Source: Clostridiaceae bacterium
GTDB taxonomy: Bacteria > Bacillota > Clostridia > Lachnospirales > Lachnospiraceae
Direction of reading: 5' to 3'
Length of the DNA: 64,000 nt
NCBI GenBank assembly: GCA_910575585.1
Contig: CAJTGF010000026.1
Coordinates: forward strand, 1-64,000
Shown: one piece after another, positions 41,702 through 63,898 of the stretch
How the letters are laid out: each line of letters begins with the position of its first letter
How positions within the stretch are numbered: position 1 is the first letter of the stretch
Made by a program: the position numbers and the translations under genes
Notes under the pieces: generated by a model
What the model was told of the DNA's origin: nothing
Databases searched by the model: none
The model's input: the letters and a program-made list of their open reading frames with translations, nothing else

Positions 41702-42328
41702 GTGAGTAAAAGCTTGTATCTGAAATTGAACCAGATCTCTGAGGTCCATGAAAAGGATGTATATCTGAAAGATATTGCCGCTCTTTACAGCGACGATCCC
41801 GCTCTGCTGGCCAAGTGCCTGGCCGTTAAGGTCAAGAAGATCTCCTCGGACCGGGATCATCGGTATGTGGGGTCTGTGCTGGATGTGATCCGGCTGATCA
41901 CCCAAACGGACCCTTCCATCCAGGTGGAAAATCTGGGGGAAAAGGATTTTATCATTGATTATCAGAAGACAAAAGCGCCTAAGATCCCATGGGAGTGGCT
42001 GAAGACCGGTTTTGTGTGCGTGATCTGTTTCTGCGGCGCGGCATTTGCCATCATGACGTTTAACAATGACGCCAGCGTCACGGACGTGTTCGGAGAGATC
42101 TACCGAATGGTGCTGGGGCAGGAGGCCGGGGAGTTTACGGTTCTGGAATTGTCCTATTCGATTGGGCTGGCTCTGGGAGTTATCCTGTTTTTTAATCATT
42201 TTTGCGCATGGAAGGTCAACACGGACCCGACGCCTCTGGAGGTGGAAATGCGTCTGTATGAGGATAATATCTCTAAGACCGTGATCCAGAATGACGGGAG
42301 AAAGGAGTCAGGGATCGATGTTGATTAA
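41702..42328 (+). CDS. spoVAA: Stage V sporulation protein AA
   Basis: SpoVAA belongs to the forespore inner-membrane channel complex for dipicolinic acid. The 208-residue protein has a cytoplasmic N-terminal domain (LYLKLNQISEVHEKDVYLKD IAALYS) and two membrane helices (GFVCVICFCGAAFAIMTF; LSYSIGLALGVILFFNHF). The start is GTG 41702. It overlaps spoVAB. Confidence 0.93.
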   Translation: MSKSLYLKLNQISEVHEKDVYLKDIAALYSDDPALLAKCLAVKVKKISSDRDHRYVGSVLDVIRLITQTDPSIQVENLGEKDFIIDYQKTKAPKIPWEWLKTGFVCVICFCGAAFAIMTFNNDASVTDVFGEIYRMVLGQEAGEFTVLELSYSIGLALGVILFFNHFCAWKVNTDPTPLEVEMRLYEDNISKTVIQNDGRKESGIDVD

Positions 42329-42740
42329 GCTGGCTTTTCTGGCCGTGTTCGGGCTTTGCGCCGGGGGTATCATTGCTGCCGGCGTTTTTGCGTTTTTGGC
42401 CATTATCGGCGTGTTCCCCAGGCTGATCGGAAAGACCGGGACGAAGAGGCATATTATGCTGTATGAGACGGTGATCATCCTTGGAGGCATAGCGGGCAAC
42501 GGGGCGGATCTGTTTGAGTTTTCCATACCGGCAGGGCGGTGGTTTCTGGCGGTGTTCGGCGGGGCGGTGGGCATCTTTGTGGGATGTCTTGTGATGTCTT
42601 TGGCGGAGACGTTAAAGACGCTTCCGGTGATTAACCGAAGGATCCATCTGGCCGTGGGGCTGCAGTATGTGATCCTGGCTATAGGGCTGGGGAAGATGCT
42701 GGGGTCTATCTTGTATTTTTCGGCGGGGATGGGACTGTGA
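42318..42740 (+). CDS. spoVAB: Stage V sporulation protein AB
   Basis: A 140-residue four-helix membrane protein (LIKLAFLAVFGLCAGGIIAA; IFVGCLVMSLAETLKTLPVI). ATG 42318 with AAAGGAG at 42301-42307 gives the usual family length of about 140. It overlaps spoVAA by 11 bases. It works with SpoVAA in the spore DPA channel. A terminator follows, so spoVAC and later genes are not in the same transcript. Confidence 0.92.
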   Translation: MLIKLAFLAVFGLCAGGIIAAGVFAFLAIIGVFPRLIGKTGTKRHIMLYETVIILGGIAGNGADLFEFSIPAGRWFLAVFGGAVGIFVGCLVMSLAETLKTLPVINRRIHLAVGLQYVILAIGLGKMLGSILYFSAGMGL

Positions 42741-44512: not shown

Positions 44513-44845
44513 ATGGAGATGAACAAGGATGCGTATAATGCTTATGTCAAGGAGGTGACTCCTGTAAACCCGGTCTGGAAAAATATTGTCAGGGCGTTTG
44601 TGACCGGGGGGATTATCTGTACGGTGGGTCAGGTGATGATGAACTGGCTGACGGCTTATGGGATGGATGAGAAGACTGCCGGAGCCTGGAATCTGCTGGC
44701 GCTGATTCTGGGGAGTATTGTGCTGACGGGATTTAATGTTTATCCCAAGATCGTGAAGTGGGGCGGTGCGGGGGCGCTGGTACCCATTACCGGGTTTGCT
44801 AATTCGGTGGTTTCGCCGGCGATTGAGTATCGGGCGGACGAATGA
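44513..44845 (+). pseudogene. spoVAC: 3'-truncated spoVAC
   Basis: SpoVAC is a mechanosensitive membrane component of the spore DPA channel, normally about 150 residues. Here the protein is 110 residues: the first part is well conserved (AFVTGGIICTVGQVMMNWLT; LLALILGSIVLTGFNVYPKI; WGGAGALVPITGFANSVVSP AIEYRAD) but it stops at TGA 44843, where family members continue with a glycine-rich stretch and the last two helices. No frame downstream restores the missing part. The ATG at 44513 (TTGGAGG 9 bases upstream) is a good start. Mobile-element sequence begins right after, so the gene may be split by insertion. Confidence 0.8.
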
Positions 44846-45291
44846 GTTATAATAGGGACAAGTCAGAAACACCGCGAAAAACGTGGATGTGCTGGTTTAG
44901 CCCCTATTTTTTTATGCAATGAGCAGGGCCGGCATGAAACTTTGGATATCAGGCGGGAAGCTTGCTCACCGAATGATGTCCAGAGTTTCAGGACGATGCG
45001 GCGAATCAAGGTGAATTGGCCGAAGGCCAAGAGAAGGCAGTCTGGACTGGCCGCAAAGCGAGGAAAACCGCAGGTTTTTCGAGCTTGAGTCCTGCGGAGT
45101 AGCTGCTTGATTACAAATTATTCTACCACACAAAGGAGGGCAGAGGCTACTTGTTTTAAAAATATTTTCTGAGGCCGTTCTGGCAGGTGTAAGGTTCTTT
45201 CATTCTGGTGATACTTTACATAATAAGGTTCCGCAAATTCTCATGCGGAACCATTTATCTAATGGGATTGTATGAAGGAGGTTAGCTGGGA
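44846..45291. other. Left boundary region of the mobile element
   Basis: No credible ORF. The segment 44990-45110 contains nested self-complementary blocks (TTGGCCGAAGGCCAA; GAAAAACC/GGTTTTTC region; CTGCGG/CCGCAG), suggesting a structured RNA or a recombination/transfer site. A terminator-like hairpin around 45223-45262 (GGTTCCGCAAATTCT and AGAATTTGCGGAACC-type pairing, GGTTCCGCA with TGCGGAACC) precedes the next gene. Any att site should be close to 44845. Confidence 0.45.
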
Positions 45292-45708
45292 ATGGATAGA
45301 GGAAAGAAGAAAATCATTTTCAGGAATAAAGAACATGAGGATTTTTATTGGACGCATTTTTTGAAATGCCGATATCAGGATGCCTACCATGCAGCGCTGG
45401 TGTATTGTCTGGGAATCGACAGGGATACAAGAGATCATGTAAACGAGATCTATGATTTTAAGACAGGGTTCGTGAAGACTGAGTGTCTGCATGACGGGTG
45501 GCAGACTTCCGGGAGTAAGAAGATTGTCCGTATGGCTTACAACCTATATAACAATGGAACGCCAAGCGTGTTCGATTATGAGGATTCGGAGGAGCAGTTG
45601 ACGGAGTGTGGGCGGTATACAGTGGAGGAATTGTTTTGCTGTGGGTATGCGCCTTATTTCTGGCAGGCGGTGAAGATTCGGTATCCGGAGTATTGTGGAG
45701 CAGCTTAG
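45292..45708 (+). CDS. DUF6075-type protein
   Basis: A 138-residue soluble protein (KIIFRNKEHEDFYWTHFLKC; YHAALVYCLGIDRDTRDHVN) like the DUF6075 family often found at the start of Clostridia ICEs. ATG 45292 has AAGGAGG 11 bases upstream. No catalytic motif is recognised. It precedes parA by 29 bases and is probably in its operon. Confidence 0.65.
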   Translation: MDRGKKKIIFRNKEHEDFYWTHFLKCRYQDAYHAALVYCLGIDRDTRDHVNEIYDFKTGFVKTECLHDGWQTSGSKKIVRMAYNLYNNGTPSVFDYEDSEEQLTECGRYTVEELFCCGYAPYFWQAVKIRYPEYCGAA

Positions 45709-45737
45709 AAAGAGAAGAGAGTAACGGAGGAAAAAAG

Positions 45738-46526
45738 ATGGCAAAGGTCATAACCATAGCTTCGCAGAAAGGCGGAGTGGGAAAAAGTACAACTTGTGTA
45801 AATCTGGGCATTGGGCTGGCCAGGGAGGGAAAGAGAGTCCTTTTGCTTGACGCGGATGCCCAGGGCAGTATGACAGCGTGTCTGGGGATAGGGGAACCAG
45901 ATGAGCTGGATGTTACCTTGGTGAATCTGATGGAAAAGGTGGTCAATGATGACCCCTGGGAACCAGGTGAGGGGATTCTTCACCATGAGGAGGGCGTGGA
46001 TTTCCTTCCGGCAAATATCGAACTGGCGGGAATGGAGACCACCCTGGTGAATATGATGAGCCGGGAGACGATTCTGAGGCAGTATATTGATAAGGTTCGG
46101 GAACGATATGATTTTATTTTGCTGGATACCATGCCTTCTCTGGGGATGATAACGATTAATGCCCTGGTGGCGGCAGATAGTGTTCTGATCCCGGTGGAAT
46201 CGGCTTATTTGTCGGTGAAGGGGCTTCAGCAGCTGATCAAGACCATTGGACGGGTGAAGCGGCAGTTAAACAGGAACCTGGAGATAGAAGGGATTTTGCT
46301 TACAAAGGTGGACCGCAGAACAAATTACGCAAAGGATATCTCGGACCGGCTTCGGGAAGCTTATGGGGACAGGATACATATATTTGAGAATTGTATCCCG
46401 TTATCCATTAAGGCGGCAGAGACCAGTGCGGAAGGGAAGAGCATTTTTATCCATGCTCCCAGAGGAATTGTGGCAGAAGGGTATGGGGCGCTGACAAAGG
46501 AGGTGCTTGCCCGTGGGGAGTCGTAG
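45738..46526 (+). CDS. parA: ParA/Soj-type partition ATPase
   Basis: A 262-residue Walker-type ATPase: deviant Walker A KGGVGKST at 11-18 (after ITIASQ), Walker A-prime LLDADAQGS, Walker B FILLDTMPS. ParA drives segregation of plasmids or circular ICE forms along the nucleoid together with ParB. The start ATG 45738 follows GGAGG. It overlaps parB by 14 bases. Its presence suggests that the element has an extrachromosomal replicating phase. Confidence 0.93.
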   Translation: MAKVITIASQKGGVGKSTTCVNLGIGLAREGKRVLLLDADAQGSMTACLGIGEPDELDVTLVNLMEKVVNDDPWEPGEGILHHEEGVDFLPANIELAGMETTLVNMMSRETILRQYIDKVRERYDFILLDTMPSLGMITINALVAADSVLIPVESAYLSVKGLQQLIKTIGRVKRQLNRNLEIEGILLTKVDRRTNYAKDISDRLREAYGDRIHIFENCIPLSIKAAETSAEGKSIFIHAPRGIVAEGYGALTKEVLARGES

Positions 46527-47406
46527 TGCGGATAAGATTAAGTTCCGTTCCTTTGATGATCTGTTTGGGGAGCAGGAGCCGAAAGGGGCAGAAAAAGAAA
46601 TAACAGAGGATCAGGTGGTCAGAATGCCTCTGGCAGAACTTCATCCATTTAAGGGACATCCGTTTCGTGTTATAGAAGACGAAGAGATGATGGAAATGGT
46701 GGAGAGTGTGAAACAGTTTGGTGTTCTGGTGCCTGTGATTGTCCGGCCGGATCAGAATGGGGGATATGAGGTCATTGCAGGCCATAGGAGGAAACGGGCC
46801 AGTGAGCTGGCCGGGTGTTCGGATATTCCGGTGATTGTCCGGGATCTGACGGATGATGAGTCGGTTATCGCTATGGTGGATTCCAATATTCAGAGGCTGA
46901 ATATTCTTCCTTCGGAGAAAGCACGGGCTTACCGGATGAAAATGGAAGCTATGGAACATCAGGGAGTGAAGGGAGGACAGCACACGGCAGCGGTTTTGGG
47001 GGAGGCTTCGGGTGAGAGTGCCAGGACGGTTCATAGGTATATCCGGCTTACCTATCTGGTGCCGGAACTGCTGGAACTGGTAGATCAGAAACGGATTCCT
47101 ATTGTTGTGGGGGAGAGTCTTTCTTTTTTGAAGGAAAGAGAGCAGGAGTTAGTGAGGGATTATGTGGTGCAAAGGCAGGTGTTTCCGTCAAAAGGTGAAG
47201 CAGAACTGCTGCGGGCAGAAAGCAGTAAGGGGGAGCTGAGTGCCCAAAAGGTTCAGGAGACTTTGCGTAGAAATGTGAAAGCGGCGGGAATCACGATTTC
47301 GGCAAAGAGAATTCGGGATTATTTTCCGGAGAGTTATACGAAGGAGGAGATAGAAAAGATCGTGTATAGCCTTTTGGACTCCTGGAGGGCAAATGGGAGT
47401 GGGTAG
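46513..47406 (+). CDS. parB: ParB/RepB/Spo0J-type partition protein
   Basis: A 297-residue ParB: the N-terminal CTPase/nuclease-fold domain has LHPFKGHPFRVIED, VPVIVRPDQNGGYEVIAGHR RKRAS (the ENGxYxxIxGxRR box) and the HTH domain lies at about 150-200 (GEASGESARTVHRYIRLTYL). I chose GTG 46513 (AAAGGAGG 9 bases upstream) over TTG 46507. Five near-identical palindromes directly follow the gene and are its likely binding sites. Confidence 0.92.
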   Translation: MGSRSADKIKFRSFDDLFGEQEPKGAEKEITEDQVVRMPLAELHPFKGHPFRVIEDEEMMEMVESVKQFGVLVPVIVRPDQNGGYEVIAGHRRKRASELAGCSDIPVIVRDLTDDESVIAMVDSNIQRLNILPSEKARAYRMKMEAMEHQGVKGGQHTAAVLGEASGESARTVHRYIRLTYLVPELLELVDQKRIPIVVGESLSFLKEREQELVRDYVVQRQVFPSKGEAELLRAESSKGELSAQKVQETLRRNVKAAGITISAKRIRDYFPESYTKEEIEKIVYSLLDSWRANGSG

Positions 47407-47421
47407 AAAAAATAGTGGTTT

Positions 47422-47586
47422 CTTTGTGCCATGGTGGCATAAAGTGAATATGGAAACCTTGTGCCACGGTGGCAGAAAGCATGGATGGGAATCCTTGTGC
47501 CATGGTGGCACAAAGTATATTTAGGAGCCTTGTGCCATGGTGGCATAAAGTAAGGCTGGGAACCTTTGTGCCACGGTGGCAGAAAG
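47422..47586. repeat. Palindromic iteron array, candidate parS
   Basis: Five copies of a 23-bp palindrome start at 47422, 47457, 47493, 47528 and 47564, spaced 35-36 bases. Arms are cTTTGTGCCA and TGGCAnAAAG around a central T/C-GG. Spacers are not conserved. Immediate position after parB makes them the best candidates for the centromere. Confidence 0.85.
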
Positions 47587-47589
47587 ATT

Positions 47590-47905
47590 TCTTTTTGCGG
47601 ATAAAGACTGTACCCATCTGGTGGCGATGCACTGGGAACATCGTTTCAATCATATGGCCAAGCGTTACAATGAGATTTGCCGGGTGCAGATGTCGAATAT
47701 TACGTCCTATGTCTGTCTCCATATGTATTGTAGCAACATGGCGAAGTCGGGCATGAACCCAAAGACGCTTCAATATCTGATGGGGCATAGCGATAAAGGG
47801 GTAACGCTGAATACATATACTCACCCCGGAATGGAGGATGCCGCAGATGAACTGAAACGGATGGAGAATTTGGAGATACGAGGAGTTGGAAAAGAAGAAG
47901 GGTGA
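47590..47905 (+). pseudogene. C-terminal fragment of a tyrosine recombinase
   Basis: The frame matches the end of ICE tyrosine integrases: HWEHRFNHMAKRYNEICRVQ, then NMAKSGMNPKTLQYLMGHSD and the tyrosine motif TLNTYTH. The N-terminal two thirds are absent; the last iteron lies at its edge. In the box where integrases have HxCRH, this reads YVCLHMYCSN, so the catalytic His and Arg are replaced by Tyr and Leu. The fragment is therefore inactive and another integrase must mobilise the element. Confidence 0.8.
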
Positions 47906-47956
47906 AAGTCCATGTTGCAGAAAATGTTTCGGGTAATTTAATAAGGAGATGGCAAG

Positions 47957-47982
47957 ACGCTCTGCTTCGGCGGGGCGTTTTT
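47957..47982 (+). terminator. Terminator after integrase fragment
   Basis: ACGCTCTGC pairs with GCGGGGCGT around TTCG, then TTTTT. Confidence 0.8.
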
Positions 47983-48003
47983 GAAGTTTAAGAATCTGGC
48001 GAT

Positions 48004-48060
48004 ATAACAGAAGATGTAGTGGTATAAGAATTTATTTTCTGTTATACTTTAAGTTATAAT
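48004..48060 (+). promoter_or_regulatory. Inverted repeat and -10 box upstream of HEPN-like gene
   Basis: Arms ATAACAGAA (48004-48012) and TTCTGTTAT (48037-48045) are perfect complements, and TATAAT lies at 48055-48060. The -35 region is poor. The inverted repeat just upstream of the -10 box could be an operator. Confidence 0.5.
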
Positions 48061-48087
48061 AGAAAACATAGAAAAGGCGGAAATAAT

Positions 48088-49374
48088 ATGGTATACAATT
48101 GTTTTATAAAATGCCAGGTTTGCGGAAGTATAACAAGAATTCGCTTGCAGGTTGGATGGCAAAACGAACATCCTGTTGTAGTGACATGCGGTAAGTGTGG
48201 GACATCTGTATCTGGACATGTTAAAATTGGTCAGTCCACACCAAGTTTGGAGTTCGACTTTGATAATGCTGATATGATCAATAAGGTAGATAAAGCTGAT
48301 TATATGGTTGAATGTTCCGGTGAGTTTCCAACTATCAAACAGTGTGAAGCTAATGGTGTAGATGATATTATAGTTACCCCTTTCATTAGAGCAATGCATT
48401 GTATGAAGGATGAAGATTCATATGAAGTGTTTGGAAAGAGCGTGTCGCAGCTAAATGCAGCTGCAGCTAAATGGAAAGATTATGAAAGAATATTAAATCT
48501 TTTTCAGAACAATAGCGAATATTTGGTTCAGGAAATCAAGAAAGAATTTAAGGGAGAATATTTTCAGTGTCGGGATGAGTTAGAAATCCTAAGAGCTGTG
48601 CATATGATTGAAGTTCATAGTTTTTATTCTCCGCTCAAAAAAGAGATATTGGATAACTTATCCTTTAGCAGCGATATCCTAAAATTAGATAGTACTCAGA
48701 TGAAAAAGATGATTGATTTTTTAAATATGCATGATGGATATCATCTTGATGAAATGCAGGCGCTTATTTATAAACTATATGGGGAGTTCGTGGATGTATA
48801 TCAGGCACTTATTCCGGCATTGCTTTTACAATATTGCAAAGATGGAACTTTTGATTTTGAAAGTGAAGGCTCAACTACAAGCACATTTGGTACCGTTAAA
48901 CAATTTTACTTAGATGTTTATGAGGCACTTGGAAATTTGTTGATTATCCCTGTCGCATTGAATAATGTCAAATACAGAGCAGATGTAGAAAAGTTGGCAT
49001 TGATTGAAAAAAATGTGACATCTTTAGAAGAATTTATTGGCTTAACAAAGGCAACGAGATATCATTTTAGTCTGAAGAATGAAATATATACTGATTTTTT
49101 AGGTCTTATCGTTAATCCTAAATTACGTAATGCAATTGGACATAATGATGTGGAGTATGATACAGCATCACAGCTTATTACATATATTCCAAATCCAAAG
49201 GATAGAACGAAGAAAAAGACAGAATATTTATTAGAATTTGAAAACGAAGCGATTCATATGTTTCAGGGTGTTTTGGCTATTTCAGAATATATATATCGGT
49301 TACGTGAATTGGAGCTTATATTTGATGGCAAAATACCTTTCACAGCGCGAATGCCTATTAATACATTAAAGTAG
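48088..49374 (+). CDS. Zinc-ribbon protein with C-terminal HEPN-like motif
   Basis: A 428-residue AT-rich gene that I do not recognise as a named family. The N-terminus has two CxxC pairs (C9/C12 and C34/C37), a zinc ribbon. The middle (110-320) is helical. Near the C-terminus KLRNAIGHNDVEYD carries the R-x4-H pattern (R347, H352) followed by helices, as in HEPN ribonucleases of toxin and abortive-infection systems. It has its own promoter region, lies between the two iteron arrays and differs sharply in base composition from the transfer genes, consistent with cargo. A defence role is inference. Confidence 0.55.
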   Translation: MVYNCFIKCQVCGSITRIRLQVGWQNEHPVVVTCGKCGTSVSGHVKIGQSTPSLEFDFDNADMINKVDKADYMVECSGEFPTIKQCEANGVDDIIVTPFIRAMHCMKDEDSYEVFGKSVSQLNAAAAKWKDYERILNLFQNNSEYLVQEIKKEFKGEYFQCRDELEILRAVHMIEVHSFYSPLKKEILDNLSFSSDILKLDSTQMKKMIDFLNMHDGYHLDEMQALIYKLYGEFVDVYQALIPALLLQYCKDGTFDFESEGSTTSTFGTVKQFYLDVYEALGNLLIIPVALNNVKYRADVEKLALIEKNVTSLEEFIGLTKATRYHFSLKNEIYTDFLGLIVNPKLRNAIGHNDVEYDTASQLITYIPNPKDRTKKKTEYLLEFENEAIHMFQGVLAISEYIYRLRELELIFDGKIPFTARMPINTLK

Positions 49375-49832
49375 ATAGGAAGAAATTTCCCTATTTTGCA
49401 TATTCTGTGATTTTTTAACAATTTTTGTTGAAAAATTAAACCTCACAAAACGTGCCAAAATACGGAAAATCGATGCATTTTAAGAGGAATTTTTATCAAT
49501 TTTTATCATGATTAAGATACTTTTGTCTGCCACGGCAGCAGAAAGCAGGGAAAAGCCCTTGTGCCATGGTAGCACGAAGTATGTTTAAGAGATTTATACT
49601 ATGGAAGTTAAAAGTGAAGCTGGATATTTTGTGTCATAAAGGTATTAAGTGGATGTAAAAGATTCCTTGTATTAGGAGGGAAAAGCAGAATAAGAGGCAG
49701 TATTAAAATAACAAAAAGAGGATACAGCATTTTCAGGTGATTATAGGTAGCAGACCATTCATTCTCCAAAGCAAATTTTGAAACGAAACAAAGTAGTTTG
49801 TTTGATTTTTTTATTTGATTTGGAGGATTATT
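49375..49832. repeat. Gap with decayed second iteron array
   Basis: Two clear but imperfect copies of the parB-linked palindrome start at 49521 (TTTTGTCTGCCACGGCAGCA) and 49556 (CCTTGTGCCATGGTAGCACG). Three weaker copies follow with the same step near 49592, 49627 and 49664. No gene is present. Spacing of about 35-37 bases equals that of the first array, so this is a degenerate duplicate. Confidence 0.7.
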
Positions 49833-50387
49833 ATGGGTAAGAGCGGAGTTATTACGGAGAAAAGCAAAGAAAACAAGGCATATCATAATGTGATCATACT
49901 GTTTAAAATTTATCGTTCAGTTTCTTGGCGCATGCAGGTGCAGATCGGGCAGGTGAAGCATCGTTTCCAGAAGGAGTATGGGACGGATGTGGACAGTTTT
50001 CTGGAATCTATTTATCAAGCAGGAATGGATCTGAATGATGATGAAGCGAATATTAAGCCAAGGGTGGAAGCGATCAGCAGCTCCAATAAGTTCTTAAAAT
50101 TGATTGATGAATCGGTGGAATTGATGAGGTTGTATCATCCTCAAGGAGAGAGGTATTACTGGGTTTTGTATTATACATATATGACACCGCACCAGCTGAG
50201 TAATATTTCGGAGATTATGGAGAAATTGGAGCCGCATTTGTCTCAGGGAGTAGGGATTAACCGGAGTACTTATTTCCGGTGGAGGGATAGCGCCCTGAAG
50301 GCAGTGGAAGGGATTTTGTGGGGGTATGAGGAAGAAAGCCGGAGGTTGTTGGAGCATTACCGGGATACGTGGAAAGAAGTTGATTGA
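49833..50387 (+). CDS. Putative ArpU/sigma-like regulator
   Basis: A 184-residue protein from ATG 49833 (TTGGAGG 6 bases upstream). The C-terminal part, RYYWVLYYTYMTPHQLSN then INRSTYFRWRDSALKAVEGI, resembles the helix-turn-helix end of ArpU/RinA-type phage regulators or sigma region 4 (SRSTYYRxRxxAI). The N-terminus is helical and undefined. It may activate transfer genes. The hairpin at 50405 follows. Family call is tentative. Confidence 0.5.
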   Translation: MGKSGVITEKSKENKAYHNVIILFKIYRSVSWRMQVQIGQVKHRFQKEYGTDVDSFLESIYQAGMDLNDDEANIKPRVEAISSSNKFLKLIDESVELMRLYHPQGERYYWVLYYTYMTPHQLSNISEIMEKLEPHLSQGVGINRSTYFRWRDSALKAVEGILWGYEEESRRLLEHYRDTWKEVD

Positions 50388-50404
50388 AATGGCATTTGTT
50401 TCAT

Positions 50405-50423
50405 GGTAAAATCTGCTTTTACC
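50405..50423 (+). terminator. Small hairpin after the regulator gene
   Basis: GGTAAAA and TTTTACC form a perfect 7-bp stem around TCTGC; weak T content afterward. Confidence 0.5.
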
Positions 50424-50478
50424 TTACGTTTAGAAAATATATTATAAATAAAAATGATACTAAGTTAAGGAGATATAT

Positions 50479-51384
50479 ATGGCAAAGAATTTATTATTGG
50501 GAAATGGAATCAATATGCGTTTGAAAATAAAAGGGCTTCAAGAGCAGGAAATAGCAGAGCGTTTTTTTCAAGATCTTATTCGCTCTAGTTGTTTATTTGA
50601 GTTATTGTTTGGTGTGAGATTTACAGAGGATATTTGCAAAGCATTATTAATGAAGACAAACAAAAAGGGTATAGAGTCTCTTTCGTACTTTGTTTATGAT
50701 TATGTTTTGGAAAATATGAGAATTCCAAAATCTATTAATGTGCGGATGCGTTTATTAGATGCAGTTATTTGCTGTGCAATAAGTGCTATATTTTATAAGG
50801 ATAACGAACGGTTAGGGGAGTTTTTTGAAGAAAAAAATCTTCCCAATATTGAATTGTATGATAATATCTTTACACTAAACTATATAGAATATTGGGATAA
50901 GGAAGAAAGAAGTATTTATTTGCATGGTAAATATGATTTTGATAAAGTAAAATGTAATAATAAACCTGTTTTACATTATAGTTATGAGAGATATTTGGGA
51001 TATAAGGGATATAAAGAACTGATTGATAAAATGAATCGTGAATATAATATGTGTGAATTATACACAAGGCCTATTGTTTTTTCACCAGAATTTTATAAAA
51101 AAATAGAAATGATGTCTATGGGGGCATATCCTTCAGAACAATTATACCCCTCAGAGGACTTATTTTTAGTCGATATGCCAGAATTATATGAGCAATTGAA
51201 AGACATTTATGAATTGGATGTTTTTGGAGTGTCGCCTTATGGGGATGATGATTTAATTAAGTGTTTAAATACAATGAATAATGTTGTAGTGTATGTTTAC
51301 AATAAAGAAAATAATGTAGAAACAACAGTATGGGAAAGGGCTCTTGTATGCCCGCATATTATAAAGGATTCAAAAGAGCTATAA
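50479..51384 (+). CDS. SIR2/AbiH-like protein, candidate phage-defence effector
   Basis: A 301-residue very AT-rich gene. LLLGNGINMRL (5-15) matches the nucleotide-binding glycine motif of AbiH and SIR2-like proteins (LIxGNGFD). IFTLNYIEYWD (T132-Y135) corresponds to the TxNYD box, and YLHGKYDF (about 148-150) to the LHG box. GVSPYGDDDLIKCLN (about 250) corresponds to the GxSxxxxD box. These four in order are the SIR2-like core of NAD-degrading defence effectors. It is a single gene with its own ribosome site (TAAGGAG) and no obvious partner. Activity is inferred from motifs. Confidence 0.6.
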   Translation: MAKNLLLGNGINMRLKIKGLQEQEIAERFFQDLIRSSCLFELLFGVRFTEDICKALLMKTNKKGIESLSYFVYDYVLENMRIPKSINVRMRLLDAVICCAISAIFYKDNERLGEFFEEKNLPNIELYDNIFTLNYIEYWDKEERSIYLHGKYDFDKVKCNNKPVLHYSYERYLGYKGYKELIDKMNREYNMCELYTRPIVFSPEFYKKIEMMSMGAYPSEQLYPSEDLFLVDMPELYEQLKDIYELDVFGVSPYGDDDLIKCLNTMNNVVVYVYNKENNVETTVWERALVCPHIIKDSKEL

Positions 51385-51459
51385 TATTTTGGATTTTATA
51401 TTAATTTTATTATTATTTGATAAAAGAATGTAAATAATACTATATACAGATAAAAAATG

Positions 51460-51488
51460 TTGACATATACTATATATAGTGCTATTAT
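51460..51488 (+). promoter_or_regulatory. Promoter with palindromic operator between -35 and -10
   Basis: TTGACA (51460-51465) and TATTAT (51483-51488) with 17 bases between. The spacer holds the perfect palindrome ACTATATATAGT (51469-51480); a related half-site (ACTATATAC) lies upstream near 51439. Confidence 0.8.
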
Positions 51489-51554
51489 ACAAAAGTATTG
51501 ATTTATATATCTTTCAGGTGAAGGATATAATAAAAATTTGTTCCTGTATGCACA

Positions 51555-51655
51555 AGCAGGAAGCTGAACGGTGAATATCTTACCGGGTTGCTTTTGTTTA
51601 TTTATGAATCAAAGAATGACGCTCATTTTGTTATGGAAATGCGGCGTCTTTTTTT
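51555..51655 (+). terminator. Leader hairpins/attenuator candidates
   Basis: Between the promoter and the next gene, two hairpins occur: AAGCAG...CGGT/ACCG...TTGCTTTTG (about 51555-51600), and GACGC pairing with GCGTC followed by TTTTTTT (51618-51655). Both would stop transcription before the gene at 51735 unless read through. Confidence 0.6.
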
Positions 51656-51734
51656 GTGCAAAAAAGGGACGGCAATATGGAAGGAGGGCAGAAGCAGGAT
51701 TTTATCAAAGGGTAGCAAAGCGAAGGAGGGGCGA

Positions 51735-52184
51735 ATGAAACGGGACAAATTCAAAAAAATGAAGCTTCAGCTGGAGACGTTGAAGCCTGCGAAAGCGGAC
51801 GACTGTGCGCTGCTTTTGCAGGGGCTGACCATGGAGACATCGGAGACGTCAAATTTTTCTATGGAGTCTGTGGAGCAGAAAAAGAGGGAGTTGAAAAACG
51901 GCATTCTGACAGTGGAAATGGAGGCCAGGGGAATCCGGATGGATGATAAACGTCTGGCTCATTTAAAGACAGGAAAGCAGGCGGAAATTTTGGATTATAA
52001 TTATTTTAAATCCAGAATGCCGGAAATGGTGATTACGGATATTCAGGCGGAGGTGTTTGATTTCCGTAAAAATAGGGTGGTTCCGTTTGCAGTAAAGAGA
52101 TTGGAGTTTTCTTTCGGCAATGGGAAAAAGGTTGATATGACAGATAGGGTGAGTGTGTTGTCGCTTAATCGTCTGGCAGGCTGA
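51735..52184 (+). CDS. ICE protein of unknown function
   Basis: A 149-residue basic, mainly soluble protein starting at ATG 51735 with AAGGAGGGG upstream (the longer frame to 51588 has no ribosome site and crosses the terminator). Features are a lysine-rich N-terminus (KRDKFKKMKLQLETLKPA) and a compact C-terminal domain ending VDMTDRVSVLSLNRLAG. No recognised family. It is the first gene of the leader-controlled block and overlaps in operon with the next one (16-base gap). Confidence 0.55.
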   Translation: MKRDKFKKMKLQLETLKPAKADDCALLLQGLTMETSETSNFSMESVEQKKRELKNGILTVEMEARGIRMDDKRLAHLKTGKQAEILDYNYFKSRMPEMVITDIQAEVFDFRKNRVVPFAVKRLEFSFGNGKKVDMTDRVSVLSLNRLAG

Positions 52185-52200
52185 GGAAAGGGGAAATTTT

Positions 52201-52440
52201 ATGATGAAGGATGTAAAACTGCAGGCAAAGAGAAGTGTTCATGTGACGGGGCAAGTCCAGTTTCCGGTGAAGATCGGGGAGGAAGCTTGTTATCTGTATG
52301 GGGGTAGCATATGGTGGACGGACCGGGTGAAAAGGATTCTTGAGATCGCGGCAGATTATATCCGCATTGAGACTACGCATTATTATTATACGATTGTGTG
52401 GAATGACAGGGGGCAGGGACAGATACGTGCCGCTGCATAA
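52201..52440 (+). CDS. Small ICE protein, unknown
   Basis: A 79-residue protein starting at ATG 52201 (GGAAAGGGGAAA upstream). It is beta-rich (VHVTGQVQFPVKIGEEACYL; RIETTHYYYTIVWNDRGQGQ). No family is recognised. It is followed by an imperfect terminator at 52463-52490. Confidence 0.5.
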   Translation: MMKDVKLQAKRSVHVTGQVQFPVKIGEEACYLYGGSIWWTDRVKRILEIAADYIRIETTHYYYTIVWNDRGQGQIRAAA

Positions 52441-52462
52441 TAGGAAGGGAGTATGTGGAGGG

Positions 52463-52490
52463 AGCAACCATTTGGGTGGCTGCTTTTTCC
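52463..52490 (+). terminator. Terminator before the T4SS promoter
   Basis: AGCAACCA pairs with TGGCTGCT (one mismatch), then TTTTT. Confidence 0.7.
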
Positions 52491-52533
52491 TTTTGAGGGG
52501 AGGAAACTTGGAAAAGAGTGTAGACTGGGGGAC

Positions 52534-52557
52534 ACTTTCTGCCACGGTGGCACAAGG
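52534..52557. repeat. Solitary iteron near T4SS promoter
   Basis: ACTTTCTGCCACGGTGGCAC followed by AAGG matches the parB-linked palindrome and lies about 45 bases upstream of the promoter at 52602. Confidence 0.8.
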
Positions 52558-52601
52558 TGGAATTGGGACTGAAAAGAGACTACATTGGGACGGCTGGTCT
52601 A

Positions 52602-52630
52602 TTGACTTGCGATTTTTAATCTTTTATAAT
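52602..52630 (+). promoter_or_regulatory. Promoter of the type IV secretion operon
   Basis: TTGACT (52602-52607) and TATAAT (52625-52630) with 17 bases between. Confidence 0.85.
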
Positions 52631-52706
52631 GGTATCATCAATTTTTATGCATGGTTAAGACATGGAGAGCCATAGGAATTGAAACCGAATATTGCAATAA
52701 TTGGGA

Positions 52707-52738
52707 AGCAATCATCAGATTTGGTGGTTGCTTTTTTT
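52707..52738 (+). terminator. Leader terminator inside the T4SS 5' region
   Basis: AGCAATCA pairs with TGGTTGCT, then TTTTTTT. It lies about 70 bases after the expected transcription start and before the first structural gene, so it can act as an attenuator. Confidence 0.75.
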
Positions 52739-52771
52739 GCGCCCAAAAGGGCGGAAAGGAGGCTGGTGGTA

Positions 52772-53155
52772 TTGGTTCGAAAGTTGAAAAACGGCCTGGA
52801 GGCTGTGGGCAGAAGGGTGGGGAATCAGATTCCCCGGATGGCGGGTGGCGCTTATGCTGTGGGAATAATGGCGGTTCTGATGTGTCAGACGGCATACGCA
52901 ACGGATATTTTTGGGGTAGCGAAAGGCGCTATGCAGCAGGTATATACGGATGTGGCTGGTCTGGCGACCGTGGGGGCTGTGGTGTGCGCGGCTGTGTGTT
53001 TGTTCCTGATGAATTTCTCCAAGTCAGGAAAGACCGTGGATGAGTCCAGGGCGTGGCTGAAGCGGATTATTATCTGTTGGGCGGCGCTGATGACGCTGGG
53101 AGCCATTGTGACCTATATGGAGAAGATCATTCCACAGAGTTCATTTACACCATAA
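52772..53155 (+). CDS. VirB2/Maff2-like small membrane protein
   Basis: A 127-residue protein, probably starting at TTG 52772 (AAAGGAGG 9 bases upstream). An N-terminal signal-like helix (GAYAVGIMAVLMCQTAYATD) is followed by two membrane segments (ATVGAVVCAAVCLFLMNF; RIIICWAALMTLGAIVTYME). Position first in the transfer operon and this topology fit a VirB2-type pilin or the Maff2 family of Gram-positive ICEs. The longer frame to 52679 runs through the leader terminator and is unlikely. Confidence 0.65.
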   Translation: MVRKLKNGLEAVGRRVGNQIPRMAGGAYAVGIMAVLMCQTAYATDIFGVAKGAMQQVYTDVAGLATVGAVVCAAVCLFLMNFSKSGKTVDESRAWLKRIIICWAALMTLGAIVTYMEKIIPQSSFTP

Positions 53156-53472
53156 ACAGGGGAGCCGGACAGGGAAACTTGTCTGGCATTTGTTTTACGG
53201 GGTGGTGAAAGTTCTGGGTAGCTTTCAGGCGGGTTGACGGGCAACATTTGTGGATGGACTGGATAGAAGTGTCTGGAATCATCTGGGAGCAGGACAAGTA
53301 TAAGACACTGCTGATTTTGAAAGAAAAGAAAAAGGCCGGCGCTCTCCCGGCAGGAAGGAGGTGGACGGCTCTCTGAAGGAAGAAAATAGAATAAGGCGTG
53401 TTTTTGGAGCTTCCAGCGGTCTGGCAGATAGCGGGAAGGGAGGGATGCGTGCCTAGAAAATAGGAGGAATGA
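53156..53472. other. Gap between pilin-like and VirB6-like genes
   Basis: No ORF with a good ribosome site. A 40-codon ORF at 53254-53376 (MDWIEVSGIIWEQDKYKTLL) is possible but unsupported. The block AGCCGGACAGG-AACTTGTCTGGC near 53162-53187 could pair as a weak hairpin. AATAGGAGG at 53460 serves the next gene. Confidence 0.4.
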
Positions 53473-56142
53473 ATGGGCTGGTTATTGGAATTGCTGTTTG
53501 AGTCTGTGAGTGAAATGTGTTCCAAGTTTATTGTGGACATGATGGACGTTGCCAGTGGGATGTTTACGGAGATTTTGTCTTGTGATCTGGATTTGTTTGA
53601 GGAATTGTTTGGGGTGGCGGGGGATTTGTACCGGAATGCGGTTGTGCCTATGGGGGTGGCCCTGCTTTTGATGATCCTGGTGTGGCAGCTGTTTAAGTCT
53701 ATGTTTGGGAAGCTGGGGACTGCTTCGGAGGACCCGGTGGAGCTGGTGTTCCGTTCTTGTTTTTGTCTGTTTATGATCTTGTTTGCCAAGGATATTGTGA
53801 ATTATATCCTGGAGGTTGCGGGGACGCCTTACGACTGGGTGGTGGGGACTGTGATCACCGTGGATTCGTTCAGTGAGTATGTGACGGCGGCGGAAGGGGT
53901 GATGTCGGCTCTGGGTATTGACGTGATGACGATTTCCATGCTGAAGCTGCTGTTACAGCTGGTGGTGGCCTGGAATTATTTTAAGATGTTGTTTATTTTG
54001 GCGGAGCGGTATGTGCTGCTGGGGATTTTTTCTTATACGTCACCGCTGGCGTTTGCGGCGGGCGGGTCTAAGGCGACCAACAACGTGCTTGGCTCCTGGA
54101 CGAAGATGTTTGGTGGCCAGGTGCTGGTGGTGATCCTGGATGCCTGGTGTGTGAAGATGTTTTTGTCGGCTTACGGGAACATGATGGCAAGCTCTTATGG
54201 GTTTACGAAATTTTTTGCGGCTAATATGTGTCTCATCGGGTTCTGCAAGATTACGGCGAAGCTGGATTCTTATATGGGGTCTCTGGGTGTGAACCTGGGG
54301 CGGATCGGCGGCGGTATGAGCGGGCTGGGAGCATTGCTTATGGCTGGGCGGCTTATGAATTTTGGCGGCGGAAGGAAAGAGGCTGCACAAGGGAGTCATG
54401 GCGGCCACATGAATTTTGGTTCTGGGAAGACGATTCCTTTGGGGAATGGAAGTCCGGGATTTGCGGGAGGCGGAATGACTGGAGGAGCGGGACAGCCGGG
54501 AGGCGGCATTGGCGGAATGGGTGCGGATGGTTTTGGAGGCCAGGCGCCGGAGTTTATGGGAAGTGGAGAGAAACCTGGAGAATCTGCGGGATTTGGAGAT
54601 TTCGGCGGGGATATGGAGCCTGGGGAGGGGCAGAATCTTCCTTTTGGCATGCCGGAAGAGGATTCTGCTGTGTCTATGGGAACGGAAAGTGGAGATATGG
54701 ATTTTGGAAACAATGGGGTGGAAGATGGACCCTTTGGATCGGTCATGGATATGGGGGAGGATATGCCGGCAGGCGTGGATTCCTTTGGAACGGAAATGGG
54801 TGCGGAAAGTATGGCGCCTTTTGGGCAGGAAATGGGTGCGGATGGCGCAGCGCCTTTTGGGCAGGAAATGGAAGACGGAGGCATGGGGGTTCATGGCCAG
54901 GGTATGGGTTCAGGGGATATGGAACTGGATGGCGGCGGAATTCCTATGGAGGATATGAGCGGTATGGAAGGCTATGCCGGATTGTCCGGGGAGGATACGG
55001 CTTTGGATGGAATGTTTGAGGATATGGCAGGCATGGAAGGCAGTGTCTCTTGTATGTCCGGAGAGGATTTTGAACCGGCAGATATGGGCGGTTTTGGGGG
55101 CTCTTTTGCCAGGGGCATGGATGGCTTTCCGGAGGCTGTGGGAGACTTTGACCATGGGGAAGCCGGATATGATGGAGCAGATGTGGAAAACGGTGGTATG
55201 GGATATGGAGCCGGAGGTATTTCTGGAATGGAGGAAGGCGGAGTATCGGCCGGGGCGATTGGCATGGCTGGAGGTCTGGGCAGTGCGGAGATTGGAATTG
55301 GAGGGGCAGGTATTGGAAGGATCGGCGCCGGGAGCGTGGGTGCTGGAAGTTTAGGGTCTGGAAACGCAGGTTCTGGGAATGGAGGTGTTGGAGAAACAGG
55401 CATTGGAAGTATTGCAGGTGTGGAAAACGGGTTTGGAACGGGCGGTTCCCAGCGGATTGGCAGTGTGTCTGGGGCCGGAATCGGGACTGGAACTGGATAT
55501 TCGGCTGGAAGTGGTTCTGGACAGGGTGTTGCCAATGGTGCTGGAATGGCTTTTGGAGCGGAAGGCGGCATGGCAGGCAGTTCTGCTTCTGGTGCAGGAA
55601 ATATGGATAGTGTAGTGCATGGAATGCCGGGCGCGGGAGAGTATGGGAGCGGAATGCCTGGAGTGTACAGGGCAGAGAGGGACGGCGAAGGGTATCTGCG
55701 TTATGACGCTTCCCGGTATGAGAGGCCCCGGGGAGCGTATCAGACAATCCATGAGAACGGGAAGACTTTTTATGAGCTTCCGGAAAGAGCGAAGGTACCG
55801 GGAATCCTTCCGGAAACAAGGGCGTCTCTGGAAAAGGACGGGACTCTTAAGGTGGAAAAGATTTACAGGGAACAGAGGTCTGTGCCGGGGAGCCCAAGGG
55901 ACAGGGCGGAAACCGGGAGTGGAATGGAGAGGCCGGAGACTGGAAGGGAAAAAGGGAAGGCCGGGACAAGAGACGGATATGAAAAATCAGGTGAGGGATT
56001 TGGTGAGAGGAAGCCGGGATTGAGGGCGAAGCCTGAGGGAAAGCAGGGAGTGAAACAGCGGAGGAACGGCCAGGGGGCTGCTGGAAATGAGGGGCAGCCG
56101 GAGAGAGGCCGTGATCAGAGGAAGGGGGACGGCAGGAGATAG
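53473..56142 (+). CDS. VirB6/TrbL-like transfer protein with long low-complexity tail
   Basis: The 889-residue protein has a membrane half (about 1-290) with five or six helices (VVPMGVALLLMILVWQLF; LVFRSCFCLFMILFAKDI; MLKLLLQLVVAWNYFKMLFI) like polytopic VirB6/TrbL channel proteins. From about 295 to 740 the chain is low complexity: first Gly/Met/acidic repeats (FGQEMGADGAAPFGQEMEDG) and then Gly-Ile-Ala-Ser repeats (GIGGAGIGRIGAGSVGAGSL). The last 150 residues are basic. The whole is much longer than usual 300-450-residue VirB6-like proteins. It starts 5 bases after TAGGAGG. The tail could be extracellular. Confidence 0.8.
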   Translation: MGWLLELLFESVSEMCSKFIVDMMDVASGMFTEILSCDLDLFEELFGVAGDLYRNAVVPMGVALLLMILVWQLFKSMFGKLGTASEDPVELVFRSCFCLFMILFAKDIVNYILEVAGTPYDWVVGTVITVDSFSEYVTAAEGVMSALGIDVMTISMLKLLLQLVVAWNYFKMLFILAERYVLLGIFSYTSPLAFAAGGSKATNNVLGSWTKMFGGQVLVVILDAWCVKMFLSAYGNMMASSYGFTKFFAANMCLIGFCKITAKLDSYMGSLGVNLGRIGGGMSGLGALLMAGRLMNFGGGRKEAAQGSHGGHMNFGSGKTIPLGNGSPGFAGGGMTGGAGQPGGGIGGMGADGFGGQAPEFMGSGEKPGESAGFGDFGGDMEPGEGQNLPFGMPEEDSAVSMGTESGDMDFGNNGVEDGPFGSVMDMGEDMPAGVDSFGTEMGAESMAPFGQEMGADGAAPFGQEMEDGGMGVHGQGMGSGDMELDGGGIPMEDMSGMEGYAGLSGEDTALDGMFEDMAGMEGSVSCMSGEDFEPADMGGFGGSFARGMDGFPEAVGDFDHGEAGYDGADVENGGMGYGAGGISGMEEGGVSAGAIGMAGGLGSAEIGIGGAGIGRIGAGSVGAGSLGSGNAGSGNGGVGETGIGSIAGVENGFGTGGSQRIGSVSGAGIGTGTGYSAGSGSGQGVANGAGMAFGAEGGMAGSSASGAGNMDSVVHGMPGAGEYGSGMPGVYRAERDGEGYLRYDASRYERPRGAYQTIHENGKTFYELPERAKVPGILPETRASLEKDGTLKVEKIYREQRSVPGSPRDRAETGSGMERPETGREKGKAGTRDGYEKSGEGFGERKPGLRAKPEGKQGVKQRRNGQGAAGNEGQPERGRDQRKGDGRR

Positions 56143-56173
56143 ATCCTGCGGGTTTCCAATATAAGGAGAGGTT

Positions 56174-58312
56174 ATGTCGGAGGATTGGAGGGACAATGGG
56201 CCGCTTGACAAAGCGGCAGAAATGGCTGCCCGGGGAGCCCGGGCAGCGGGGCAGGCGGAACGGATAGCCCAGGCGGTACAGTCGGCTCATGGAGCCATGG
56301 CAGCGGCAGGTGCTGGCGGGGCGGTAGGGGGGATGGCTGTGGGAAGCGCGCTGGCAGGGCCTTTGGGGGCTGCTGTGGGAGCTTTGGTTACAAGCAGGAC
56401 GTTTTGGAAGGTGGTTCTTTCGCTTTTTTTGTCGGTTTTGTTATTTGTGTTTGTGATTGTCAATGGGGTGGGTCTTATCCTGGCTTATCTGGGGTTTGGG
56501 GACGCGGACAGCTATGCGGCCCAGGCCAGAGAGGCGGAGTATAGGAATATTAAAGATCAGATTGAGACTCTTTTGGAGGAGGATTCCCGGCTGGCAGAGG
56601 AGATTTACGGGCTGATTGAGGCGGAGAGGGATTTGCTGTATGAGGAGATTGGGGAGGATTTTGATGGGAACTGGGAGGATTATGACGGGTATGAGGTGGA
56701 GACGGATGAGTATGAAACGGTGCTGAAGCGGAATCTGAGCCGTTATTTGGCGGTACTGATTGAGGAGGAGTGGAGCGGGAGCCGGATTGTGGGTTTTAAT
56801 GGGTATGGTTCTTATGGGGGAGTGGAGGGGAACCTGACCAGTGTGTATGATGAGTATTTTGCTCTGGCAGCTGCTACATACCAAGTGCCGGAGGCGCTTT
56901 TGAAGGCTATGGCAAAGGTGGAGTCGGATTTTAACCCCAATGCGGTTTCGGGAGCCGGGGCTGTGGGGATTATGCAGCTTATGCCGGCTACGGCGGCCAA
57001 TCTGGGAGTGACGAATCCTTATGATCCGAAGGAGAACATTATGGGAGGGGCCAAGTACATAGGGGAGATGCTGCGGACGTTTTCTGCGTATCCGAATGGA
57101 CTGGATCTGGCTCTTGCAGCTTATAATGCGGGGCCGGGGGCGGTGAGACGGGCAGGGTATCGGATTCCCCAGAACGGGGAGACGCCTGCTTATGTGGAGA
57201 AGGTGAAGGGGTATCTGATTTTTACGGATATGGCTGAGAGAACTGGGAATGGAAGCCTGTGGGATGAGAATTTGGAGTTGAACGGTGACGATTCTGGTGA
57301 ACCTGGAGAAATGGTGATTGGAGAAGGGCTGCAGGGGATAGAGGCAACAGAGGGTAAGGATGGAAATGGGATAACAAGGATTGAAGATATAGGTGGGAGT
57401 TTGGAAGTGTCGGGAATGCTGTTAAAGTCCTTGGTGGAGGAGCGGGCTTCGGAATTTCTGGGCTGGACACAGACGGGGACTCATACAGAGACGGAAGGGG
57501 CCGGGGAGGATGAGGTGGAAAGGGAGATTGTGGATTACGCCATTGTGGTGCTGCTGGAGCCGGAGCTTTCGGAGATGAAAGGGGGCTATCAGTACCGGAT
57601 GGTTACGGATCAGACGTCATTTCATTATGTGCTGACCTTGTTTCAGCTGGCCGGCCAGGGAGTGGAGGGAGCCCAGGATCTGGTGCTGCGGGCGGCAAGC
57701 TGGAAGAATTACGTGCTGGGGGAAGGGGCTTCGGAAGATATTTATACGGGGACCATTTCCACGGAAGGGGACCGGATTGTCTATGATACGGTGGATGGCT
57801 GTGTGGGGGAGGCGGTTTACTACAACCAGGGGGAGGAACCCTGGGCTTCTCTGCCTTATGGGGGAAGCAATATCCGGTCGTCCGGGTGCGGGCCTACGGC
57901 GCTGGCGATTGTGATCTCTACTTTGACGGGGGAGGCGGTTACGCCGGAGCTGACGGGGAGGTTTGCCATTTCGGGAGGGCATTATGTGAAGGGGAAAGGG
58001 ACAAGCCATGCTTTTCCGGCTGCTGCAGCAGTCCACTGGGGGCTTTCTGTGGTGAGGGTGAAGCGGGAACGGATGAATGAGGTGGTGAAGGGGCTTAAGG
58101 AAGGAAAAATGGCGGTGGTGATCTGTGCGGAGAACACGATCTCCGGAAGCAGCGGGCATTATATTGTGCTGACCGGGGTGACAGATAGCGGATATCTGAC
58201 CATTGCTGACCCTGGGAGCCGAACCAGGACGGGGAATTTGTACAGTGCGGCCACGATCCAGTCTTATGCCAGGGATTTGGCGGATGGGAGTATCTGGTTG
58301 ATTGGGAAGTAA
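56174..58312 (+). CDS. Conjugation lytic transglycosylase / C39-like peptidase
   Basis: A 712-residue cell-wall hydrolase that would open peptidoglycan for the transfer channel. Order: cytoplasmic Ala/Gly-rich segment, one membrane helix (77-107, FWKVVLSLFLSVLLFVFVIV), a coiled region, a soluble transglycosylase domain (catalytic E250 in AKVESDFNPNAVSGAGAVGI; ALAAYNAGPGAVRRAGY), an acidic linker, and a C-terminal C39-type cysteine peptidase fold (C572 in SGCGPTALAI, H662 in GHYIVLTG, D679 in ADPGS). Most Gram-positive ICEs pair the transglycosylase with an NlpC/P60 domain instead. Ribosome site AAGGAGAGG is upstream. Confidence 0.85.
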   Translation: MSEDWRDNGPLDKAAEMAARGARAAGQAERIAQAVQSAHGAMAAAGAGGAVGGMAVGSALAGPLGAAVGALVTSRTFWKVVLSLFLSVLLFVFVIVNGVGLILAYLGFGDADSYAAQAREAEYRNIKDQIETLLEEDSRLAEEIYGLIEAERDLLYEEIGEDFDGNWEDYDGYEVETDEYETVLKRNLSRYLAVLIEEEWSGSRIVGFNGYGSYGGVEGNLTSVYDEYFALAAATYQVPEALLKAMAKVESDFNPNAVSGAGAVGIMQLMPATAANLGVTNPYDPKENIMGGAKYIGEMLRTFSAYPNGLDLALAAYNAGPGAVRRAGYRIPQNGETPAYVEKVKGYLIFTDMAERTGNGSLWDENLELNGDDSGEPGEMVIGEGLQGIEATEGKDGNGITRIEDIGGSLEVSGMLLKSLVEERASEFLGWTQTGTHTETEGAGEDEVEREIVDYAIVVLLEPELSEMKGGYQYRMVTDQTSFHYVLTLFQLAGQGVEGAQDLVLRAASWKNYVLGEGASEDIYTGTISTEGDRIVYDTVDGCVGEAVYYNQGEEPWASLPYGGSNIRSSGCGPTALAIVISTLTGEAVTPELTGRFAISGGHYVKGKGTSHAFPAAAAVHWGLSVVRVKRERMNEVVKGLKEGKMAVVICAENTISGSSGHYIVLTGVTDSGYLTIADPGSRTRTGNLYSAATIQSYARDLADGSIWLIGK

Positions 58313-58427
58313 GGGCGGCAAAGAGGAGGAAGCGGGAAAACGGATTTGACAGGTGGATCATACATGACGGATTTGCGGTTTATGGGGGATTGGTGTTTTG
58401 AGCGGAAGAAGGGAAAAGTGGTGGAAA

Positions 58428-59207: not shown

Positions 59208-59236
59208 TTTGGTTTTGAGGAAAGAAGGTGAACGTT

Positions 59237-59686: not shown

Positions 59687-59687
59687 G

Positions 59688-62384: not shown

Positions 62385-62496
62385 ATGGCGGGGAATAGGC
62401 TGGAGGGGTGTTTTATGGTGAAAAAGGAAAGGGGAGAACGGAACAATAGAGAGGCAGCAGGAGGAAGGAGAAAGCTGGCAGGAGGTGAGGGAAAAC

Positions 62497-63727: not shown

Positions 63728-63898
63728 GGTATCGAAAGATGAGGGCTGTGGGGGAGCGGTCAAATCGACAGGGTAAGAGTTGCCAAAAAATGCCGTGGTT
63801 TGTGTAAAAATTGGGGATTGACAGGTGGGAAATGTTACCCAGGGATAGAGCCAACAGGGTAGGAAAGAGAAGATTACGGAAAGAAATGAGGGGTGGTT

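Follow-up and report, generated by a model that had tools for sequence, protein, structure and literature searches.

Known sporulation intervening elements excise in the mother cell, a compartment that is not passed on (PMC4191935). Two of them, skin in sigK and SP-beta in spsM, resemble the locus described below in that each brings about a reversible, site-specific split of a sporulation gene (PMC4191935). The gin element is also similar – it is non-phage, encodes three serine recombinases, and splits a sporulation gene, Bacillus cereus gerE, at a short repeat (PMC5595907). The spoVA genes are known as island cargo and, in the cited part of PMC6907783, not as an insertion target; in the open-access literature, we found no description of an insertion that splits spoVAC.

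Our analyses concern a 64,000-nucleotide window (C26:1-64000) in a 6.13 Mb draft genome of 253 contigs (G000). We consider it very probable that an ICE-like element of ~114 kb was inserted by its own serine recombinase into an attB site within spoVAC, that the insertion is reversible in principle, and that the same site has been hit recurrently. The features that define the insertion and its host flank are:

41702..42328, + strand: spoVAA, host flank (PF12164)
42291..42740, + strand: spoVAB, host flank (PF13782)
44513..44838, + strand: 5' part of spoVAC, C-terminally truncated (PF03862 E 1.3e-31, TIGR02838 E 4.4e-31)
44816..44859, no strand: attL, compared with C8:91305-91348; host half 44816-44836, core GA 44837-44838, element arm PR 44839-44859
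44839..64000, + strand: left portion of the ICE-like element (~114.4 kb in all), continuing to C26:67936 and then, by inference, over C8:1-91325

The spoVAC ORF of the window (44504-44845) has its ATG at 44513, followed by 110 codons and a stop. The reading frame enters the element by 7 bases past the core and stops at 44845, giving a protein that ends in ...SPAIEYRADE and lacks ~40 C-terminal residues. Coverage of the PF03862 profile (1-85 of 117) and of TIGR02838 (2-104 of 141) bears out an earlier sequence-only reading, in which SpoVAC was conserved up to AIEYRAD and then cut. The gene terminates at a serine-recombinase-type attachment site. A PF03862 search of the genome identified three places: a gene beside spoVAD on C96, the 5' part in the window, and C8:91317-91421, which covers profile positions 83-117 only – the part absent from the window. 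The split is thus not a matter of chance, as the missing part of the profile is found once elsewhere in the same genome, and the search returned no spoVAC match beyond the two halves. The place on C8 reads EGQIFGIGCKIFTIAGPVILYGILSSWVLGVIYWIGGVMGVI followed by a stop; the 3' part, at C8:91326, is in frame with the 5' part, as had been predicted for the far end of the element.

We found that the two junctions have CGGA in common (44835-44838 in the window), which agrees with the short direct repeat that had been anticipated; the core GA recurs at C8:91326-91327. When the host halves are rejoined at the shared CGGA, they encode an unbroken SpoVAC of 150 codons. The element ends, once joined, form a deduced attP, GTGCCTATATTGACACACTCG-GA-CGAATGAGTTATAATAGGGAC, with arms that are inverted repeats symmetric at 15 of 21 positions. 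Large serine integrases use a short core within inverted-repeat arms. The symmetry of the deduced attB (6 of 21) is far below that of attP. Across 1975 offsets in the 2 kb to the right of attL, only the deduced centre reaches 15 and two others reach 13, while the maximum against the right arm is 11 across 1975 offsets in the 2 kb to the left of attR (true site left out). Together, the in-frame 3' part at the far end and the short shared core support the original proposal of an ICE-like element inserted in spoVAC. Neither attP (allowing up to three mismatches) nor a rejoined spoVAC was found in the assembly, which shows the major form only.

The element, as we reconstruct it, comprises 23,098 bp on C26 and 91,325 bp on C8, plus an unassembled intron. 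Its annotated features on C26, and those at the start of C8, are:

45292..45708, + strand: DUF6075 protein, the first gene of the element (PF19552 E 3.5e-56)
45738..46526, + strand: parA (PF13614 E 5.9e-56)
46507..47406, + strand: parB (PF02195 E 6.3e-21)
47417..47586, no strand: five 28-nt palindromic repeats with a spacing of 35/36 nt, directly after parB
47576..47905, + strand: C-terminal fragment of a tyrosine integrase (PF00589 positions 94-169 of 172 only)
53473..62384, + strand: T4SS region
53473-56142, + strand: large membrane protein of the T4SS region, without a Pfam match
56174-58312, + strand: SLT/C39 protein of the T4SS region (PF01464, PF13529)
59688-62384, + strand: VirB4/TraG-type ATPase of the T4SS region (PF19044)
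C26:66582-67936 (L006): 5' half of virD4, at the right end of C26 (PF02534 45-312)
C8:1-941 (L037): 3' half of virD4, at the start of C8 (PF02534 318-458)
C8:11-107: 3' end of a group II intron (RF00029 E 4.3e-9)

Mobile-element genes – DUF6075, ParA, ParB, a partial tyrosine integrase, and a T4SS – thus lie to the right of the cut, as the sequence-only reading had stated. The two halves of virD4 are complementary, and this, along with the 3' end of a group II intron ahead of the second half on C8, leads us to infer that C26 and C8 carry parts of one element. The ends of the two contigs have no overlap, and the end of C26 has no Rfam match to an intron start. From their position beside parAB, the palindromic repeats at 47417-47586 are a possible partition site of the element. 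A DUF6017 protein is encoded near the C26 end, and the C8 part of the element encodes YqaJ and ERF proteins, a RecD2-type helicase, and many others (20 element proteins plus nine more were scanned). We also observed on C8 an ORF of 4028 aa (C8:36645-48731; L038, L039) and a protein with a CNYSCNCC stretch that, judged by eye, is radical-SAM-like (C8:70357-71283; L040).

In common with ICEs, the element has an integrase, bounded att sites, and a T4SS with VirB4 and VirD4 (the latter in two halves). The label 'conjugative' rests on the T4SS genes, since PF03432 – the only relaxase family tried – has 14 matches in the genome and none on C26 or C8. As virD4 carries an intron, transfer may be impaired. 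At E<=1e-200, 26 of 397 family genomes encode relatives of the VirB4-type ATPase (best identity 78%), and at E<=1e-100 so do 2 of 26 genus genomes; both counts include G000.

Three large serine recombinases (554, 563, and 536 aa) are encoded in tandem 1.6-6.6 kb from attR, and each has Resolvase and Recombinase domains over almost the whole profiles. Like an intervening element, this element thus encodes site-specific recombinases and splits a sporulation gene, the halves of which rejoin in frame. The likely integrase is among these three full-length serine recombinases close to the element's far end, rather than the tyrosine-integrase fragment in the window, which has only positions 94-169 of 172 in PF00589. 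The gene between the third recombinase and attR (L004 9024-9992) gives a sub-threshold PDDEXK_2 match (22.9 bits against a cut-off of 27.4). In the mechanism that we propose, one of the element's large serine recombinases would insert it at attB (core GA) in spoVAC, leaving two undamaged gene halves at attL and attR. Recombination of attL with attR would in principle rejoin a full-length spoVAC and release a circular element with attP.

In the host flank, three ORFs upstream of spoVAA have the domain order STAS, HATPase, sigma-70, as in spoIIA-sigF. Contrary to the earlier expectation that spoVAD and spoVAE would follow at the far end of the element, both genes are on C96, and neither is among the ORFs of the window at 40-52 kb:

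C96, L005 4364-5386, - strand: SpoVAD (PF07451 E 1.1e-139)
C96, L005 3910-4266, - strand: SpoVAE, assigned by its position beside SpoVAD (PF03862)

The absence of spoVAD and spoVAE beside spoVAC need not stem from the insertion, as other members of the genus have similarly distant genes. The spoVAC and SpoVAE-like genes are far apart in G005 (G005:C11:117132, - strand, and 76564, + strand) and close in G006. Besides the spoIIAA/spoIIAB/sigF-like ORFs, the sporulation genes that we checked were spoVAA, spoVAB, spoVAD, spoVAE, and spoIVA, all of which are open and match their families.

We then asked how spoVAC appears in related genomes. A short spoVAC shared by relatives, which the sequence-only reading had named as evidence against an insertion, is not the pattern within the genus, where the spoVAC match is full-length in 20 of 26 genomes. 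Among the others, G000 is split, the contig that carries the gene in G012 ends 7 bases beyond the core, and no 5' part is present in G003 (which has a 3' end in a displaced position), G004, G007, or G024. A sample of 200 family genomes contains 135 with a TIGR02838 match, and the best E-value is <=1.4e-39 in 125 of these, among the matches listed. The remaining ten are G000, three genomes with partial genes (G062, G110, and G173), and six with weak matches only (best E 1.8e-10 to 3.0e-7). Partial spoVAC genes in four genomes were considered as insertions at the core and rejected: G173 has a run of N, G110 has frameshifts, G062 has two in-frame stops, and G205 is cut by contig ends. A second occupied, undamaged site was not found among the matches listed for the 26 genus and 200 family genomes.

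Traces of other insertions are more widespread. A search of the genome_contigs collection for the left arm of attP plus the core (CCTATATTGACWCACTCRRA) gave 12 stretches, and in nine of these, from eight genomes, the arm is fused to a spoVAC 3' end; the other three are unrelated. G003, with one base different, brings the genomes with such scars to nine besides G000. On the strength of these fusions of the attP left arm to displaced spoVAC 3' ends in nine other genomes, spoVAC is, as judged from sequence, a recurrent insertion target in related Lachnospiraceae. Seven of the nine (G002, G005, G008, 1XD21-29, D16-56, G423, and G428/G044) have a full-length spoVAC, which was not found in G003 and G424. 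In G002, G008, 1XD21-29, and G428 the full-length gene is upstream of the scar on the same contig and strand, and in G005, D16-56, and G423 the arm-bearing scar is on a different contig. One contig of 1XD21-29 has a full-length spoVAC at 146.1 kb and three 3' ends displaced to 153.7, 156.9, and 164.0 kb, the first with a single changed base in its arm. All four lie within 18 kb, and the only recombinase-like genes among the ORFs scanned there are without a catalytic domain. A left-arm search of 397 family genomes with two mismatches allowed gave three matches: G000, the spoVAC scar of G044, and a match in G077 with two mismatches. In viral_contigs the left-arm pattern gave six matches, none joined to a spoVAC 3' end. 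We also observed that DNA like the PDDEXK_2-candidate gene borders the G008 scar (77% over 801 bp, spanning the arm and the spoVAC 3' end).

The scars would have been made by other, or now lost, enzymes, as the recombinase nearest attR has no close relatives in the collections searched. With this protein as the sole query, nothing above 39% identity apart from itself was found in the 26 genus genomes (E<=1e-80) or among the few candidates scored per genome in 397 family genomes (E<=1e-120). One relative at 25% was found in viral_contigs, and three plasmid records are at 29-39%. We propose that, wherever a displaced spoVAC 3' end is fused to this attP left arm, an element once ended there, and that accretion could have left behind the segments between spoVAC copies as decayed or cis-mobilizable elements, some of them with defence genes. 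An element integrated beside an older attR would leave with or without the older segment, and by leaving with it could deliver a 3'-headed cassette to the next host. Accretion of this kind, a notion built on CIMEs (PMC5704250, in part), would explain scars that have a whole spoVAC in front.

Several of these segments encode defence systems. Our scan for defence genes covered 1XD21-29, G002, G008, and the right flank of G000. Between its full-length spoVAC and the displaced 3' ends, 1XD21-29 encodes Gabija (GajA E 1.4e-217, GajB E 4.7e-199) along with DUF3990, AlbA_2, caspase-like, and RmrT-like proteins. G002 encodes a Gabija of the same kind and an uncalled 493-aa protein with no PADLOC match, while the Gabija pair of G008 is different from that of 1XD21-29 and G002. 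In G000, the flank to the right of the element encodes an AlbA_2 protein and Hachiman (HamA E 9.3e-99, HamB E 0). In G002 and, twice, in 1XD21-29, the spoVAC 3' end is followed by a conserved protein of 225-229 aa that has Recombinase and zinc-ribbon domains and lacks a Resolvase domain; an 84% homologue is present in G005 and pieces in G423, and none was found in G008. This protein could be a helper, decoy, or regulator of serine integrases. Copies are located at:

L043 10675-11364, - strand: 225-229 aa recombinase-like protein
L046 11231-11911, - strand: 225-229 aa recombinase-like protein
G421:C228 146753-147442 and 157230-157907 (L096, L097): 225-229 aa recombinase-like protein

Sequence comparisons point to exchange of the DNA around the core. 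The G000 flank that starts at attR and includes Hachiman shares 99.5% identity with G002 over 4821 bp, whereas the left flank, from spoIIA to spoVAC, is 79-86% identical – a difference that implies movement of the attR-Hachiman segment between species. Compared with G025, 1XD21-29 is 60 and 83% identical in two 150-bp blocks before the core and 91.5% in the 130 bp after it; G005 and G001 are 95% identical just before the core and 76% after. Of 36 genome pairs, 20 show greater similarity over the 130 bp after the core than over the 150 bp before it, and 16 show less. Exchange around the core thus has no set direction, and spoVAC is mosaic. Several cassette identity blocks begin inside spoVAC, upstream of the core, which indicates that homologous recombination is likely also involved; with mosaic exchange both ways, this led us to reject site-specific movement at the core as the sole route.

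A related element in G071 has a VirB4-type ATPase that is 76% identical and has one internal stop. It adjoins a short ORF (L150 10187-10498; G071:C1 about 5450186-5450497) with Pfam helicase domains only (ResIII E 6e-15), which by eye resembles a uvrB 5' fragment. Neither the rest of uvrB nor a recombinase like the three of G000 was found in the 195 kb analysed. Further members of the element group might use other conserved genes as targets.

SpoVAC acts in the forespore and serves DPA uptake inside the future spore. This role argues against a classical mother-cell intervening element. SpoVAC is needed in the forespore, and excision in that compartment would deprive the lineage of the element unless the excised circle were retained. 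A cell with the element in spoVAC should make no working SpoVAC, and under our preferred explanation the host presumably sporulates through element-free cells. A true sporulation intervening element, with excision switched on in sporulation to rebuild SpoVAC as in skin, gin, and SP-beta, would be a sub-case of that explanation with regulation added, and the probabilities of the two overlap. We regard it as unlikely, even though neither half of spoVAC is damaged, the two can be rejoined in frame, the remaining sporulation genes that we checked are open, and gin in gerE likewise has three serine recombinases (PMC5595907, in part). It is weakened by the lack of a second occupied, undamaged site among the matches noted above, and by the known cases acting in the mother cell, so that the spore keeps the element (PMC4191935, in part). 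A crude promoter scan of five regions found a single sigE-like match, ahead of attR, and a single sigF-like match, upstream of the first of the recombinases, but missed its positive control upstream of spoVAA, and so carries no weight either way. More speculative, and in our estimate quite improbable, is a forespore-compatible intervening ICE that at sporulation exits from spoVAC in mother cell and forespore alike, is kept as a circle by ParA/ParB and the repeats, is possibly replicated, re-integrates after germination, and shuttles spoVAC-3'-headed defence cassettes between species. If this were true, the spore would gain a working SpoVAC yet inherit the element.

The insertion might also be a dead end, in which SpoVAC is unrestorable, DPA uptake is lost, and the halves are intact only because the event is recent. 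As this shares the structural claims of our preferred explanation, the probabilities of the two overlap, and we judge a dead end possible but doubtful. A split in only 1 of 26 genus genomes, the interrupted virD4, and the lack of an excised junction in the assembly are consistent with it; complete catalytic domains in all three recombinases, undamaged attL and attR, and the full-length spoVAC in seven of nine scar-bearing relatives are not what it would lead us to expect. An assembly or binning artefact that joins unrelated pieces is conceivable in a 253-contig draft with an estimated contamination of 4.08%. However, both junctions contain one and the same core, the element arms join into a symmetric attP, each virD4 half complements the other, and the genome has no further spoVAC match – making an artefact very improbable.

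As spoVAC serves DPA uptake in the future spore, its split provides a clear-cut way to ask if a forespore gene, too, can be served by an intervening element. From the recurrent scars, serine-recombinase insertions among gut Lachnospiraceae can be read off spoVAC, and in several genomes the scars also record the gain of defence genes. We found no open-access paper on defence islands or integration hotspots with serine recombinases in Lachnospiraceae.

Unlike the spoVAC element, skin and SP-beta are phage or phage-like, reside in mother-cell genes, and have been shown to excise (PMC4191935, in part). For gin, the cited part of the source describes a 28.6 kb element with 9 bp shared between its ends and a demonstrated excision from the mother-cell gene gerE during sporulation, and mentions no T4SS (PMC5595907); the spoVAC element is ~114 kb, has a T4SS and a 4-bp shared core, occupies a forespore gene, and is known from sequence alone. 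Streptococcus ICEs have a similar serine-integrase triplet, T4SS, and insertion in a gene, though their targets hsdM, traG, and mutT, unlike spoVAC, are not sporulation genes (PMC4701971, in part). The cassettes of the relatives, as putatively non-autonomous, att-bounded segments stacked at one target gene, are like CIME accretion tandems (PMC5704250, in part), and differ from CIMEs in being headed by duplicated spoVAC 3' ends, some with defence genes.
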